DNA of 64,000 nucleotides from Pleurocapsa sp. PCC 7319 (GTDB lineage Bacteria > Cyanobacteriota > Cyanobacteriia > Cyanobacteriales > Xenococcaceae). The stretch spans positions 2,763,322 to 2,827,321 of the forward strand of contig NZ_KB235922.1 of NCBI RefSeq assembly GCF_000332195.1, in the 5' to 3' direction. Below, in pieces: positions 5,940 to 43,022 of this stretch; within the stretch, counting starts at the first letter, position 1; each line of letters begins with the position of its first letter. Under the pieces are notes generated by a model, which saw nothing but the letters and a program-made list of their open reading frames with translations, made no database searches and was not told where the DNA came from. The position numbers and the translations under genes are program-made.

Positions 5940-6410
5940 TTGTCTATCAATCAAGTATTACTCATTACTTATTACCTTAAAAAGCTTTAAGCTCTAAGCC
6001 TTAAGCTTTAAGCTCTAAAGTTTACGCTTGGTAAACGGCTAACAGTGAGACAGTTCGTTGGCGGTGAAGCAGGGCGTTGGCGGGGTTCCCCCGCTTGAAG
6101 CCACTGCTGAACCCTTTAGGGGGTACGATGCGGCCATACGCCTGGCCTTTGTCCCGCTTGAAGGAACTGTCGCCCTAAAGGATACCGCTTCGCATAAGGG
6201 CGGGGGTTTCCCCCATGAACAACTTCATCAAGAAGAAACTGTCGTTGGCGGAGCCTTCTCGAAGAGTACCCGAAGGGCTTATAGCTATCGGGTTTAATGC
6301 CCCCAGCAAACGAAGTTTGGTGGTCTACAATTAGGAGAGGTTAAAGCCTCTTCTAATTGGCTATAAGCTTACAGCTTACAGCTTATAGCTGCGGCTCTGC
6401 CGCTTTACTT
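5940..6410. repeat. dense cluster of short palindromic repeats (no gene)
   Basis: About 470 bp of low-complexity and palindromic sequence between rsmE and the Rieske gene. It begins with alternating AAGCTTTAAGCTCTAAG units (about 5980-6018). It continues with GTTGGCG/GAAGC modules around 6050-6270, including GCCCTAAAGG...GCTTCGC at 6172-6193. Two hairpins follow: CAAACGAAGTTTG at about 6308-6320 and CAATTAGGAGAGG paired with CCTCTTCTAATTG at about 6329-6360. AGCTTACAGCTTATAGCT-type repeats come last. A 79-codon open frame runs through it (6058-6297) but is made entirely of these repeats. AGTGAGACAGTT-CGTTGG recurs at about 59956. Confidence 0.75.
6172..6193 (+). repeat. small dispersed repeat, GCCC...GCTTCGC family
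   Basis: GCCCTAAAGGATACC then GCTTCGC. It closely matches the 23-bp insertion at 37407-37429 inside an IS630 transposase and is related to those at 37716-37742 and 42456-42482. Here it is part of the intergenic repeat cluster. Confidence 0.6.
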
Positions 6411-37047: not shown

Positions 37048-37406
37048 CCGATTATTTCTGAGCTGAACTATGGCTAATGCCCGTCAACAGAAGGATCTAG
37101 CCACTCGTCTAGATGAACTTAAACATCTTATTAAACAACTCCAACAAGATATTCAAGACATAAGGGACGAAGGTGAAATTGCTCCGTCTGGTTGTTGGAT
37201 TGTGCGCTACCAAGCTAAAGGAAAAAAGGGTGGTCGTTATTGGTATTACAAATGGATGTCCCATGAGCCGATTTTTGTCACCAAAAATGGCAATCCTTCT
37301 CGTCATCAATATTTAGGTATAGTCATTCTAAATAATTTCCGTATGATTTAACGATGTCATCCAAGGAAGTACCAGGAGCGGAATAAATACGTCTTTTTTT
37401 GAGGAT

Positions 37407-37429
37407 GCCCTAAAGGATTAGCTTCGCGT
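37407..37429 (+). repeat. 23-bp small dispersed repeat in the IS630 transposase
   Basis: GCCCTAAAGGATTAG then CTTCGCGT sits between GAT and CGC (plus strand). Removing the 23 bases gives GAGGATCGCAAAG and restores the family reading EQDFAILKKRRIYS on the minus strand. The insertion therefore frameshifts the transposase. Nearly the same sequence is at 6172-6193. Confidence 0.8.
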
Positions 37430-37715
37430 CGCAAAGTCTTGTTCGATACGATTAAAATCAGGTGAATAGGGTGGTAAAAACAAAACTTTGTGACCCGCTT
37501 GTTCGGCAATGCGAAACACATCATCCTTGCGATGAAATGCCGCATTATCAAGAATTAGAGTGGAGTTTGGTTTCAATTCGGGAATTAGATGCTCTTCGAG
37601 CCATTGATTAAACCATAAAGCACCATTTACTTCCTTTAAAAAGAACTGGTGCTAACAACTCTTTGCCTCTTTTGCCAGCTATCAGACTTGTTCTTGTTCC
37701 TCTTTTACCATTGCG

Positions 37716-37742
37716 ATTGGCGAAGCCACTGCCCTTCGGGCA
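37716..37742 (-). repeat. 27-bp small dispersed repeat in the IS630 transposase
   Basis: On the minus strand TGCCCGAAGGGCAGTGGC then TTCGCCAAT lies between GCGAT and CGC. Its removal gives GGCGATCGCAATGG, a perfect HIP1 site, and protein KTYGDRNGKRG. Inserted, it adds nine codons (CPKGSGFAN) without changing frame. Confidence 0.82.
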
Positions 37743-38479
37743 ATCGCCGTAAGTTTTTTGTCCTCGTTTTGACCAGCCATAAGGACGATAGACATATTCT
37801 TCAAAGCCTGATTCATCCAAGTAAACTAAATTGCTTGATCCGTCAAGAATGACAATTTTACGTAAATTTCTCAGAAAGCTGATTCGCTCACTATGCTTAC
37901 GTTCAGTGTATTTCAGCGTTTTTTTTACGAGTTAACTTCATTTGCTTCTGGGCATACCCAATAGCACTCGTATGCACTCCAAAATATTGCGCCCTTTCTC
38001 TTAACAAAGCATCTGGATTTTCTTGAATATGTTGGGCAATTGCTAGAGAGTCTAGTTTTCGCTTTCTTCCAAGTTGTGGTGCTGGAGTCAAATTCTTTCT
38101 TCGACACCAATCATTCACACACCATAGACTTACCTCATATCTTCTTGATGCTTCGGCTTTGGAGCCTCCAGCCGCTACAAAGTCCACTACCCGCTTTCGC
38201 AAATCTACACTATAAGTCATCTAACCTGATTGATTTCTCATCTAGCTTATATTATTTCATATGTTTCCTATTTAGAATGACTATAAAGCTGGAAGTCAAG
38301 CTTATTTGAAAGCGGTTGAAGCTCTATCACGTCGTGGTCGAATTGAAGCTTTGGAGCGAGGGATGAGTACACTTTCAATGGGTTTGTCAGATTTGGTTGA
38401 GGAAACCTCAAGATTGAACAAAAGTTAGCGAACATTATTACCTAGTTTTTTTTCGACCCAAGATACCGTGAAAAGTCAG

Positions 38480-38689
38480 AATTACATTGGGTGTAGCTTG
38501 ATATTGAGCCAGATACTCTTCTCCTTGGATTAGCTTGTAGCCATCTTGTTTGACTACCATACGACTTCTAAACGCTGCTCCGTGCCACTTGCGACATTTA
38601 GAACAATGACAGTGAACTAAATTTCCTGTTGCACCGTTATATTCATAGCGAATTTTGCCACATAAACATTCGCCTTTTAAATTAGCCAA
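38480..38689 (-). pseudogene. 5' part of the GFA-family gene split by the IS4 element
   Basis: The likely start is TTG 38689 (MANLKGECLCGKIRYEY), preceded by AGGAGGAG four bases upstream; an upstream GTG at 38716 is less likely. Zinc-binding ECLCGK and CHCSKCRKWHG are the first GFA motifs. The frame runs to QATPNVI at the 9-bp target duplication and then into the IS. Joined to 35215-35439 it gives 144 aa with all GFA cysteines. GFA proteins bind zinc; the name activity on S-hydroxymethyl-glutathione is doubtful for most members. Confidence 0.9.
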
Positions 38690-38817
38690 TTTTCTCCTCC
38701 TGCAGCTTGAACCCACATTTCGCGAGTTGTATCGTATTTCTTAGGATTATAGATTTACTTCATCTGCTTAGTTGAATAATGTTTCTCGAGCTGCTAAATG
38801 ATTCCGTCTCAAAGTTC

Positions 38818-40893
38818 TTAGTGACCCACATTTTCAACAGACCGGGCAGACTCGGACGTGGGTTCCATCGCCACCGTAGCTGGAGAATACCAGATGGGAG
38901 AAGTATACGCCCGCTCTTGTAAGGTTAGGGGAATACGATTACAAACTTTTGGACGTTTGGGTTTGGCACACCACTCATCGCCGAAGAAAGCTTTATCGTA
39001 GTCCGTCCAACGGGGAGTGGGAATTTCCAACACTCGGGCATAGTAAAACGCCCGTTGGCTGGGGTCGAAGTCAGGGTCTGTCCAAACCGTTTCCAGTTGC
39101 TTGTCACCGATAGTGTTGGTATAGGTTGCCGTTTCGGTGTCCACGGTGTTGCCAACATCAGGTAAATCGCCCGTGATAGGACGAGGGGTGCGACCGTCCG
39201 AACCCTTGACGTTATAGATTTTTTCGTGGGTGTTGCCCTCAGCATCCAGCCAACCTTTGATAATTTGAATGCGATCGAGGTTTGCTCCCAAGGAGTCTTT
39301 TAAGGCAGCCACCAAGAAGGTAGGTGTTTTTTCTGGCGGAATAGGGGTCAGATCGCCACCCATGGGAACCCCCTTGTCATAGCCCACTTCAGCCAGATCC
39401 AGGTCTAAATCCGAGTCGTTGAAGTCCCAACCGCCAAAGAAGCGAACAACCATACGCGGTCCGGTGGTGCCATACACTTCTCGTCGCTCCATGGCATCGA
39501 ATAGAGCCTTACGGGTATTTTCGGTAGCCCAAACCCCCATGTAGCCAGAGGCTCCATACTGCCATCCCAAACGACCGACCTTCTCTATTGCTCGTTCAGT
39601 ACTGGGAGCCTGATTGGGGAATTTACCCATAAAGCTATTTTCTTCCACCGCCGACACGGAAATATGAGAATCTGTAGAACCCGCCAGACCAAATTTGAAG
39701 GGGTTAGCACCAAGGCTTTCTTCAAATTTCAGTCCATTTTTCAGAGCCGGACGAGCATACTCATGCTCAAACATCGCTTTGCGGGCTTCGGGGTCACTGG
39801 GTTTTGGGAAGCTCATATCTAGGTTGCCTAAATCCCAACCTGCAACCTCAAAGTCAGCAAATTCATCATCCGGAGATATCTCCGGATGAGTTTCACTGGT
39901 GCCTTTAATCTGGGTGACTTCATAGATGGGTTCCCAAAGCTGTCGCCGTTGGGCATAGTTCTCGGTCAAGGGATTACCATTATGATCGATTTCCGCAAAC
40001 ATCAGACCGTTGCTGATATTGCCATTGTGGGGAATTGCTAGCACATCCCCACCCGTCTTATCCTCATAGTTTTGCATCCAGTTCCAAAGGTATTCTGGAT
40101 TGCTGCTTTGGTTTGTGGTGTAGGGAACCAGTTGGTTGGCTTTGTCCCCATTATCACGGTAGATGATATTGCGGTGTAAGTTGTTGCCACCCAGCAGCGA
40201 GGTCCACTCATAACCAATCACTGCGGTAAAATTACCCGGATCGTTATGAGCTTCTGCCGTATCAATTATTTCCTGCCAGAAAGTTTGGAACTCTTCGGCA
40301 GAGGGAGACAGACATGAGGGTAATTTCCCTTGGGAAAAAGCTGCAATAATTTCTGATGAAGCTTTAACTGCCTTATTTCCACCCGCCACAACCATCTCAT
40401 GCCAGGTATCAACCTGCTCTTGAGCGGCACCGCAATCTGTGGGAGTATTAAACAAAAACTTTGAAAAAGCCCCTAACCCGTCTGAGTGATCGGTAACAAC
40501 CAAAAAATCTAAGGGGCGAGAAAGCTTCACGGGTTGTCCTGCATCGGTTATGACTTCATTGCCCCGAGCAAATTCATAGGCATCTGCAGGTCCCAAACGA
40601 GTTCCAGCAGCTCCTGCATCAAAGGAATAAATGGTGTGCAGGTGGGTATCGCCCCATAACACCTGTTGGGGTCGCTCTACATAGGGCGAGTAACACTTAC
40701 TATTGGGGTCAAAGCGGCAATCTCTTTCAGGTAAAGGGGTCGAGGATTGTTTCTCAAGAAAGTCGTACTCTCCAGGGGGTAGGGAAGATAATGCTAAAGC
40801 ACTGTTGGAGGGAATGAGAATGTTCCCCATCAGTAAACAAATACACAAGCCTGTGATAAACAGTTTGCGAATTCGCAAAAACCTTTGATTCAT
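38818..40893 (-). CDS. secreted DUF3604 protein
   Basis: 691 aa. An N-terminal signal sequence (positive start, then LFITGLCICLLMGNILI, cleavage probably after SNSALA) exports it. The mature part has LWGDTHLHTIYSFDAG and FLVVTDHSDG, PHP-like metal-binding His/Asp motifs, followed by VIGYEWTS, AIPHNGN, LAGSTDSH and YGTTGPRM, the standard order of DUF3604. The family has no settled biochemical function; PHP-like motifs suggest a metal-dependent hydrolase. It follows HupE-like and parvulin genes on the same strand (126 bp from hupE-like), and the same grouping is common around DUF3604 genes. It has no frame defects. Confidence 0.9.
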   Translation of the reverse strand: MNQRFLRIRKLFITGLCICLLMGNILIPSNSALALSSLPPGEYDFLEKQSSTPLPERDCRFDPNSKCYSPYVERPQQVLWGDTHLHTIYSFDAGAAGTRLGPADAYEFARGNEVITDAGQPVKLSRPLDFLVVTDHSDGLGAFSKFLFNTPTDCGAAQEQVDTWHEMVVAGGNKAVKASSEIIAAFSQGKLPSCLSPSAEEFQTFWQEIIDTAEAHNDPGNFTAVIGYEWTSLLGGNNLHRNIIYRDNGDKANQLVPYTTNQSSNPEYLWNWMQNYEDKTGGDVLAIPHNGNISNGLMFAEIDHNGNPLTENYAQRRQLWEPIYEVTQIKGTSETHPEISPDDEFADFEVAGWDLGNLDMSFPKPSDPEARKAMFEHEYARPALKNGLKFEESLGANPFKFGLAGSTDSHISVSAVEENSFMGKFPNQAPSTERAIEKVGRLGWQYGASGYMGVWATENTRKALFDAMERREVYGTTGPRMVVRFFGGWDFNDSDLDLDLAEVGYDKGVPMGGDLTPIPPEKTPTFLVAALKDSLGANLDRIQIIKGWLDAEGNTHEKIYNVKGSDGRTPRPITGDLPDVGNTVDTETATYTNTIGDKQLETVWTDPDFDPSQRAFYYARVLEIPTPRWTDYDKAFFGDEWCAKPKRPKVCNRIPLTLQERAYTSPIWYSPATVAMEPTSESARSVENVGH

Positions 40894-41019
40894 GTTGATT
40901 AACTCCTGTGGGAATTATTTTTTTTCGATTGTTGAACTCCAGATAAAATGTCTGCTGGTTCACTTTTAGTTGCGCTCGCTGGACTTACACTCATTCAATT
41001 GTGAGATGCCAAGTCGGCT

Positions 41020-42048
41020 TTATCCCCAAAATGCAGCAACTCGCTGAATACACCAAAAGGATGCCATAGTGCCAATACTGTATGTAGGCACCCATTCCGA
41101 CCAGCGCGGATAGCTCTGGGAACTAAATCGTTTTAAGCTTTCCATCAACGCAACCACCATCAGCACAAAGGCTAGTTGTCCCATCTCCACCCCAACATTA
41201 AAAAACAACAGTGCCGGGGGAATGTCTTGGGGCGGTAACCCCACCTCAGTCAATGCGCCTGCAAAACCAAAGCCATGTAATAGCCCAAACGTGAGAGCGA
41301 CTAGCCAGGGATATTGCTCCGTCAGTCCCGGTTTTCCCATCTGACTGTGCGCTAATTCTGAAGCCAAGAACAAAATACTCAGGGCGATCGCAGCTTCCAC
41401 AGGCGCTTGAGGTACATTCACAAAACCCAAGGTCGCTGCCCCCAGGGTAAGGCTGTGAGCCAGGGTAAAGGCAGTTATGGTCTTCACCAAACGCCAAGAG
41501 GGGGCAATAATCAACACCAGCCCCAAAACAAACAGCAAGTGGTCAATGCCACTCAAGATGTGTTCGACTCCCAGTTTGAGGTAAGTCTGCCCAACGGCAA
41601 ATACAGTGGTTTTTTCCGGAATGACGAAGGTTTCTTGTCCACTGGGCAACAGGGTCGTTTGGGAATGCCCATCTGCCCACTCCAGTCGCAACAGCACCTC
41701 CACAAAGTTTTTCACCAGTCCAGGAAAAGCAATTGTTGATTGAGCCAATCCTTTGTCGCCACAATCCAACGTCCATCGGGAAACAGAAGTGGCAATTGCT
41801 TCAGGCGTAATCGCCACAGTACAGTGTTTGGGGAAAACTGGGCGAATGTCGATTGGCGGTCCATAGCCATCATCCCCAGAACCAAAAGTTGGTGGGGTTT
41901 TCCAAAGTACGTTGATTTGACCAGAGGGTTGTTCTCTTAATTCCAGGTAAGCGGTTTGAAAGCCATGAGCTTTAGCCGGAGTGGGAGAAAATCCCAGAGT
42001 TATAACAATCAGGAGAATCACGCCAAGCCAGCGTCGTATCCAGTTCAT
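41020..42048 (-). CDS. HupE/UreJ-family membrane protein
   Basis: 342 aa. A signal peptide (WLGVILLIVITLGFSP then TPAKAHGF) leads into a beta-rich extracytoplasmic domain of about 140 residues. The membrane domain starts with LGVEHILSGIDHLLFVLGLV, the HupE/UreJ_2 signature with conserved His and Asp, then ALTFGLLHGFGFAGAL, also His-containing. Members are thought to move nickel or cobalt, though many are untested. Its ATG overlaps the stop of the parvulin gene by 4 bp (ATGA), so the two are translated together. DUF3604 follows. The codon usage looks more G+C-rich than in neighbouring genes. Confidence 0.87.
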   Translation of the reverse strand: MNWIRRWLGVILLIVITLGFSPTPAKAHGFQTAYLELREQPSGQINVLWKTPPTFGSGDDGYGPPIDIRPVFPKHCTVAITPEAIATSVSRWTLDCGDKGLAQSTIAFPGLVKNFVEVLLRLEWADGHSQTTLLPSGQETFVIPEKTTVFAVGQTYLKLGVEHILSGIDHLLFVLGLVLIIAPSWRLVKTITAFTLAHSLTLGAATLGFVNVPQAPVEAAIALSILFLASELAHSQMGKPGLTEQYPWLVALTFGLLHGFGFAGALTEVGLPPQDIPPALLFFNVGVEMGQLAFVLMVVALMESLKRFSSQSYPRWSEWVPTYSIGTMASFWCIQRVAAFWG

Positions 42049-43022
42049 GATTTGCCCTCCTGAAGTGCTTGGTTTAGGGCATCCCGATCAATCGAGATTG
42101 TGTAGCGATCACGCAATTTTTCAGAGAACTGTTGATCCAGCTTTTGCTTCTGCTTTCGCAGGTAGTCCAGACGCACATTCTTTCTCACCTCTACCAAGGT
42201 TGCTGGATGGCCGGGTTCAATTTCAGTGACGTTAACCAGATGGCTACCATAAGCAGAATGGAAGGGGCCTTGCCAACCTTTCTCAGTCACTCCAGCGATC
42301 TCAGTCGCCAAAGTTCCCCCAAAAGTGTTATTGATGGTTCGAGCCGAGGCCAGGGTATAGGTTTTAGGCAACATGGAGCGATCGCCCTTGGGTTGAACCA
42401 CGTTGGGGTCGGTTTGTAGCTGAGTCAGAAGATTTTCAGCATCGGCATCAGTGCGATCGCGAAGCGCATGCCCTACGGGCTTATCGCTATGTAGTTCTTG
42501 GCTGAAATAGACTTGCTGAAAGCTAAAACGTCCGGGAATAGTATAGCGATCGGCATGAGCGTCTAAATAACTTTGCAATTCTTCATCCGACGGCTCCTGT
42601 ATACCTGCCACATTTTCCACCAAAAACTGCATTTTTTGAATGAGTCGTCGCCGCACAATGATATCTTTATCATCTAACCCCAATGCCAGGGCTTCCTGAT
42701 ACAAAACCTCATCGTGAATATACTTATCTACTAACTTTTGCAACTGTTGCTCCGTTGGCTTTCTGCCCCACTGCAACTGCCAAGTTGCTTGCAAAGAGCT
42801 AATTACAGGACCTCCGACTTCAATTTGTTTGGCGGAAGTAGATATCATTGAAGGACTGCCAACCCAAAAATACAGCCCAAATAGCAGGGCACCCAAAACT
42901 AGGAAATGCAGCAATGGTTCTCGCAAGATGCGAATCGGTGGCTTGGGTTGATTGTCAGTATCAACCAGGATTGCAGACGGCAGAGTTTCTCGATTGATCG
43001 GTGTTGTTACTATTTCCTGCAT
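42045..43022 (-). CDS. membrane-anchored parvulin-type peptidyl-prolyl isomerase
   Basis: 325 aa. After about 38 cytoplasmic residues comes one hydrophobic segment (LLHFLVLGALLFGLYFWVG), so the rest is outside the membrane. A SurA/PpiD-like helical part (VDKYIHDEVLYQEALALGL, QKMQFLVENVAG) is followed by a parvulin domain with RFSFQQVYFSQ, GGTLATEIAGV and GWQGPFHSAYGSHLVNVTEI. It would help fold exported proteins, perhaps DUF3604 or the HupE ectodomain. An in-frame 27-bp small dispersed repeat (KPVGHALRD) lies at a former HIP1 site. It overlaps the HupE-like gene by 4 bp. Confidence 0.88.
   Translation of the reverse strand: MQEIVTTPINRETLPSAILVDTDNQPKPPIRILREPLLHFLVLGALLFGLYFWVGSPSMISTSAKQIEVGGPVISSLQATWQLQWGRKPTEQQLQKLVDKYIHDEVLYQEALALGLDDKDIIVRRRLIQKMQFLVENVAGIQEPSDEELQSYLDAHADRYTIPGRFSFQQVYFSQELHSDKPVGHALRDRTDADAENLLTQLQTDPNVVQPKGDRSMLPKTYTLASARTINNTFGGTLATEIAGVTEKGWQGPFHSAYGSHLVNVTEIEPGHPATLVEVRKNVRLDYLRKQKQKLDQQFSEKLRDRYTISIDRDALNQALQEGKS
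42456..42482 (-). repeat. 27-bp small dispersed repeat inside the parvulin gene
   Basis: On the minus strand GCGAT is followed by AAGCCCGTAGGGCATGC then GCTTCGCGAT and CGC. Taking out 27 bases leaves AGCGATCGCACTG, a perfect HIP1 octamer, and the protein HSDRTDAD. It adds nine codons in frame, so the enzyme probably survives. Same family as 37716-37742 and 37407-37429. Confidence 0.85.

Follow-up and report, generated by a model that had tools for sequence, protein, structure and literature searches.

The DNA analysed here is a stretch of 64,000 nucleotides (the window) from contig 7 of the 7.39-Mb genome of Pleurocapsa sp. PCC 7319. In this window, an IS630-family transposase gene and a gene for a parvulin-type peptidyl-prolyl isomerase are each interrupted by a 27-bp insert, at 37716-37742 and 42456-42482, and the transposase gene also holds a 23-bp insert at 37407-37429. 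All three sequences stand where the original prediction had placed them, and two of them (27 and 27 bp) add nine codons in frame while the third (23 bp) shifts the frame, as it had said. The two 27-bp inserts split copies of the HIP1 octamer (GCGATCGC). They very probably (at about 0.88) belong to a mobile repeat without coding capacity, of the SDR5 type (small dispersed repeat 5), which would be mobilised in trans, likely as a folded single strand, and enter HIP1. The parts of the two copies and their host genes are as follows:

37357..38220, minus strand: IS630-family transposase gene, split into several frames, with both IS630 inserts inside (HTH_Tnp_IS630, PF01710; DDE_3 under its curated cut-off)
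37713..37717, plus strand: left HIP1 half GCGAT of the IS630 mid-part insert
37718..37728, plus strand: hairpin 1 of the IS630 mid-part insert, TGGC-GAA-GCCA (4 bp and a triloop)
37730..37742, plus strand: hairpin 2 of the IS630 mid-part insert, TGCCC-TTC-GGGCA (5 bp and a triloop)
37743..37747, plus strand: right HIP1 half ATCGC; uninterrupted GCGATCGC in the closest IS relative, L348
42045..43022, minus strand: PPIC-type peptidyl-prolyl isomerase (parvulin) gene, 325 aa (PF13145), the reading frame open across the insert
42453..42457, plus strand: left HIP1 half GCGAT in the parvulin gene
42458..42466, plus strand: hairpin 1 of the parvulin insert, CGC-GAA-GCG
42470..42480, plus strand: hairpin 2 of the parvulin insert, GCCC-TAC-GGGC
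42483..42487, plus strand: right HIP1 half ATCGC in the parvulin gene; GCGATCGC intact here in 5/5 orthologues examined

Positions 37713-37747 and 42453-42487 both read GCGAT, 25 bases and ATCGC, and each insert is 27 bp long when one copy of AT is counted. Joining the flanks of either insert gives GCGATCGC. Entry had been placed at GCGAT^CGC; because the AT is shared, this is equivalent to GCG^ATCGC read from the opposite strand. The pattern GCGAAGC-N{2,16}-GGGC has 4 matches in the window, versus 0.10 expected.

The 27-mer is defined by its structure, which is two adjoining triloop hairpins, with stems of about 4 bp and 5 bp, between the HIP1 halves. A scan for this structure alone (GCGAT, two triloop hairpins, ATCGC) in 61 stretches of 1.264 Mb, the window included, gave 22 strand hits at 15 places from 4827 anchors, and the same scan with five control word pairs gave 0 hits from 7967 anchors. 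In the whole genome, the commonest form with at most one mismatch had 78 matches and its control 0. Among the 64 distinct contexts with sufficient flank that were examined from these matches, stem 1 was TGGC/GCCA in 46 and CAGC/GCTG in 12, and stem 2 was TGCGC/GCGCA in 38 and TGCCC/GGGCA in 11.

Covariation was counted in 110 unique sequences, 49 from this genome and 61 from named cyanobacterial records or metagenome-assembled genomes (MAGs) treated as cyanobacterial. The stems were paired in 98.3% of cells; in slid controls, shifted by one to three bases, the figure was 44.5% at the most. The search pattern fixes ten of the fourteen pairs, so that only the four free pairs are informative, and all four of them change on both sides. 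Half-pattern copies with TGGGC/GCCCA, TGAGC/GCTCA, TACGC/GCGTA and TGCC/GGCA stems show compensatory change also at fixed pairs; other half-pattern copies are degraded, truncated or interrupted. The three-way junction was the minimum-energy fold for 27/49 of the own sequences with DNA parameters and 16/49 with RNA parameters, and for 45/61 and 25/61 of the others.

Within the own set, otherwise identical copies can carry a hairpin loop in either of its reverse-complement states (GGA/TCC, GAA/TTC, AAA/TTT). Among otherwise identical classes (31 for each loop) there were five such pairs for loop 2 and two for loop 1, most with small counts, and this is only suggestive of single arms being flipped.

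A search of the genome with the insert alone, blind to its flanks, gave 87 matches and 0 for a reversed-pattern control. These matches fall in 76 distinct contexts once IS copies are collapsed, and five contexts in which hairpin 2 is interrupted by another repeat were set aside. After excision, the flanks of the 71 uninterrupted contexts were exact HIP1 in 52, and they had one mismatch in 10, two in 8 and three in 1. AT was on both sides in 70 of the 71. The imperfect flanks are partly nested or tandem: one HIP1 at L102 is occupied by two different elements, and L074 is a three-level nest. In the 1.264-Mb sample, HIP1 makes up 1129 of 5239 GATC sites (21.5%), and the binomial p for its excess at the flanks is about 2e-20 even with only GATC sites eligible.

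An explanation by chance matches together with copies riding inside IS elements has next to no probability. Copies do ride, as the 6172 copy discussed below is on a larger repeat and the IS630 inserts are on at least 11 IS copies, but the 76 contexts remain after those copies are collapsed and the element patterns have 0 control matches in this genome. The IS630 inserts travel with the IS, in 11 pairs about 313 bp apart and one single match at a contig end. Since the IS carries both inserts, they are not independent of it and count once.

HIP1 is over-represented about 190-fold (1129 versus 5.9 by a first-order Markov model), and thus a five-base homology on both sides is available everywhere. 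The repeats might have spread by homology without a HIP1-specific enzyme: single-stranded copies would anneal through GCGAT and ATCGC to HIP1 exposed at forks, and replication would fix the looped-out hairpins. Moreover, the last base of hairpin 2, next to ATCGC, is G in 11/49 own and 18/61 other unique sequences, which remakes HIP1 at the border. However, the two arms offer only ten bases, and annealing should have converted the 10 contexts with one-base imperfect flanks and the 9 worse ones, unless these mutated later. We regard this route as possible but rather unlikely.

The empty sites bear directly on the order of events. Orthologues of the parvulin gene were searched in 195 genomes of the order. 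Six matches were outside the own genome, and the five that we examined (L343-L347; the sixth is G507:C192) all had an uninterrupted GCGATCGC at the junction and no insert. These orthologues are from other families of the order, and none was found in the 12 genomes searched in the genus of the window. For the mid-part of IS630, 22 relatives were examined and none had the insert; the closest (L348) reads GCGATCGC, L349 reads GCGAGCGC, and the other 20 are without HIP1.

For twelve interrupted genes, segments were also searched across the genus, in 13 genomes with this one among them. Ten of the twelve genes gave legible junctions, which come from the loci at hand among more matches; one RelA locus, L328, gave none. 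At 46 positions, 44 in relatives and 2 in own paralogues, there were no inserts, and 21 positions had an exact GCGATCGC in register. Judging by our reading of their sequences, we take three of these genes to encode an SNF2-type helicase, RelA and an M42-type peptidase. The exact HIP1 was present in 6/8 positions for the helicase, 4/5 for the peptidase, 6/11 for the L235 gene, 2/7 for RelA, 2/4 for the L282 gene and 1/2 for the own paralogues of the L228 gene.

The change at these sites is insertion, not loss, and there is strong evidence for recent mobility of the 27-mer. It is very improbable that the repeats came first and that a HIP1-multiplying process later turned the borders of ancient repeats into HIP1 halves. 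Propagation of HIP1 by nucleotide substitution has been reported, going by the title of reference 6 in PMC4390886. But relatives without the repeat keep GCGATCGC at the same codons, in those 21 of 46 positions and in all five parvulin orthologues, and the empty sites largely refute this order of events. The empty sites and the genome-wide search that ignored flanks strongly support, for two of the three copies in the window, that HIP1 is targeted by an element without room for a gene. The claim was made for all three, and it fell for the copy at 37407.

Several results weigh against reading the 27-mer as a mobile repeat directed to HIP1. In nine of the 71 uninterrupted contexts the flanks have two or three mismatches to HIP1, and 25 of the 46 empty positions are not exact HIP1, with 0/3 for L232, 0/3 for L256, 0/2 for L265 and 0/1 for L268. 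Among the 22 IS630 mid-part relatives, only the closest has HIP1. The flanking AT could be either duplicated or borne by the element, and the data fit both alike. Among the matches listed, 103 are in loci taken as cyanobacterial, and these form all four free Watson-Crick pairs in 71 cases, three in 26 and two in 6. G.U and A.C departures are both rare, which fits either strand, and DNA as well as RNA, as the intermediate. We found no source or enzyme for the element, and by our reading of the half-matches listed (107 matches counted, 20 places examined) no unmatched left and right halves are close enough together to point to an autonomous element with the same ends.

The other two look-alikes in the window are different repeats:

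37407..37429, minus strand: type B 23-bp dispersed repeat, unlike the 27-mer and outside HIP1; a frameshift in the C-terminal part of the IS630 transposase
6172..6193, minus strand: look-alike core within a larger dispersed repeat (about 5970-6408)

The three inserts had been grouped as one family by the form GCCC...GCTTCGC, with the sequence at 6172 as a similar copy. As a definition this motif was rejected. It had 52 matches versus 7 in the control (45 versus 16 with two mismatches), but it gathers two other repeats and misses most of the HIP1-splitting copies, which have other loops and stems. The 6172 sequence is inside the larger repeat at about 5970-6408, which is 100% identical to L060 over 437 bp and is partly common to several other loci of this genome.

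The insert at 37407 reads ACGCGAAGCTAATCCTTTAGGGC on the minus strand and is a different repeat. HIP1 or a one-base variant of it had been proposed as the entry site of all three inserts, and this is so for the two 27-mers; excision at 37407 leaves AGGATCGC, with two differences from GCGATCGC. The nearest empty site, in the IS relative L348, reads GCCATCCTC on the coding strand. Elsewhere the repeat follows GCG or GTG, and its flanks, as judged from the copies themselves, do not add up to HIP1. HIP1 targeting by this repeat was therefore rejected, and the proposed check by empty sites supports the parvulin and mid-part IS630 inserts only.

The 23-bp repeat is also found inside hairpin 2 of other elements. 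At L407, L409, L410 and L412 (L411 and L433 are similar), this repeat or a longer composite with a similar start is at the same point of hairpin 2 in HIP1-borne elements of different loci, so that either one spot was hit several times or composites move as one piece. At least 11 copies of the IS630 at 37357-38220 have spread carrying the frame-shifting repeat, which implies that the IS transposes in trans or by frameshifting. A search with up to three mismatches for an uninterrupted IS630 site of this repeat found only one different sequence, and the IS630 had no match in the plasmids collection.

The 27-mer is often within genes. In 22 of the 64 contexts it is in a frame of at least 180 aa that is open across it, and these cases include both orientations and more than one reading frame. 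A 27-mer that is rich in GC and poor in stop codons is expected to give such open frames, which alone are no sign of function. The element could persist within genes because its length is divisible by three and it seldom contains a stop codon. In-frame inserts in the genes for the SNF2-type helicase, RelA, the M42-type peptidase and others mean that these repeats lengthen proteins. At L221 (G000:C2:73659-76693), two unlike copies of the element are 69 bp apart in one 311-aa reading frame. The neighbours of the parvulin gene at 38818-43022 are presumably a DUF3604-like and a HupE/UreJ-like open reading frame. In some rhizobial plasmid records a DUF3604 gene is annotated under the isomerase match, and this suggests transfer between phyla.

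Copies with at most one mismatch number 78 in the own genome and 85 in G005, and eleven other genomes of the genus have 0-7. With two copy-rich genomes among poor ones and legible empty sites, the choice of target, the duplication at the border and the acting enzyme can be tested in close relatives. The strict 27-mer form is patchy across the phylum, since its pattern was present in only 2 of 386 genomes of a phylum-wide sample, the own one included. A scan of named genomes gave at least 109 loci, and among the matches listed the element form is present in several Nostoc, Scytonema and Brasilonema genomes. In the plasmids collection, two query forms matched 22 and 19 records, mostly partial or weak, the best being Brasilonema at 90.9% and 97.1%. 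Nostoc punctiforme was absent among the loci listed and among the plasmid matches.

Ten of the 109 loci listed are in records titled as proteobacteria, an actinobacterium or Eubacteriales. They were rejected as true members, taken as chance matches and left outside the covariation count; nine of them form at most two of the four free pairs, and L113 forms three. MAGs titled Chloroflexaceae and Gracilibacteria were counted as cyanobacterial, the Gracilibacteria case being an assumption. The Chloroflexaceae-titled MAG was kept because L142, from Chloroflexaceae bacterium SM1_2_4, is identical over 3035 bp to G028 of the cyanobacterial order of the window, and the title of that record looks wrong.

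The halves GCGAT and ATCGC would close a three-way junction around the two hairpins, and the element is probably mobilised in trans as single-stranded DNA or RNA that is folded and recognised by its shape. It could enter through a cut at GCGAT^CGC with a stagger of two bases, and the AT on either side would follow from that; alternatively, its GCGAT and ATCGC ends could anneal at a gap in HIP1. As an analogy only, the restriction enzyme AsiSI/SgfI cuts GCGAT^CGC and leaves a two-base 3' overhang. The compensatory stems and the loops in both orientations would fit self-templated copying of hairpin arms, but the stems are accounted for just as well by selection for copies that pair well and are mobile. 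A broader proposal is that the identity of the element is its shape. Any 27-mer of two triloop hairpins closed by HIP1 halves would then be copied into HIP1 through a folded single-strand intermediate, by an AT-staggered cut in HIP1 or by annealing, and self-templated repair of the arms would keep the stems perfect and the loops both ways. We consider this combination unlikely. At L446 (G000:C7:4004052-4004451), there is a head-to-tail array of hairpin units with GCGAT or GTGAT between them, apparently built by repeated insertion into half sites.

Other short mobile repeats differ from the 27-mer. Repetitive extragenic palindromic (REP) elements and REPINs are short palindromic non-coding repeats moved in trans by RAYT (Y1-type) transposases. 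The 27-mer differs from them in having an octamer target and in being often intragenic. In tagged REPs, one end has GTAG or CGTC, and the same source names the repeats that Elhai et al. described in cyanobacteria with the REP-like families that lack these tags (PMC3733652). There is no invariant GTAG or CGTC tag at the hairpin foot of the 27-mer in the 64 contexts. Miniature inverted-repeat transposable elements (MITEs) are non-autonomous and mobilised in trans, and those of the IS630/Tc1 kind have a TA target duplication and the terminal inverted repeats of a resident IS. MITEs are described as 70-300 bp long with terminal inverted repeats of 15-30 bp (PMC3733652). In contrast, the 27-mer has internal hairpins and at 27 bp has no room for terminal inverted repeats, and its flanking dinucleotide is AT, mostly within GATC.

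The closest known system is SDR5. According to the 2008 abstract of Elhai et al., SDR5 in Nostoc punctiforme is reportedly 21-27 nt long, non-coding, found exclusively within HIP1, and of a structure with compensatory mutations. Nested insertions of such repeats and an inferred mobility are also said to be described there. The 27-mer resembles SDR5 in its position within HIP1, as found with flanks unused in the search, in its compensatory changes, and in its mobility, shown here by the empty sites. However, strict exclusivity fails here, given the nine contexts with two or three differences, and the host is a Pleurocapsa-like cyanobacterium. Hairpin 2 here most commonly has a TGCGC stem with a GGA or TTC loop, whereas elsewhere the commonest form is TGCCC-CTT-GGGCA/G (CTT loop in 43/103, among the matches listed). 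SDR5 (Elhai et al. 2008, Genome Res. 18:1484) inserts precisely in HIP1 between nucleotides 3 and 4, as PMC4390886 (Elhai 2015) states, and the insertion point here, GCG^AT... or equally GCGAT^CGC, agrees with this. The likeness is to SDR5 as described in these sources. Two further papers that cite the 2008 work add nothing on the insertion into HIP1. Judged by titles and the beginnings of abstracts, we found no other literature on these repeats beyond the papers named. Thus a repeat that inserts into HIP1 is as such already in print as SDR5. To this the present analysis adds the host lineage, clean empty sites, statistics from a search blind to flanks, covariation inside a single genome and the distinction of the 23-bp repeat from the 27-mer, possibly with some overlap with the tests of 2008.

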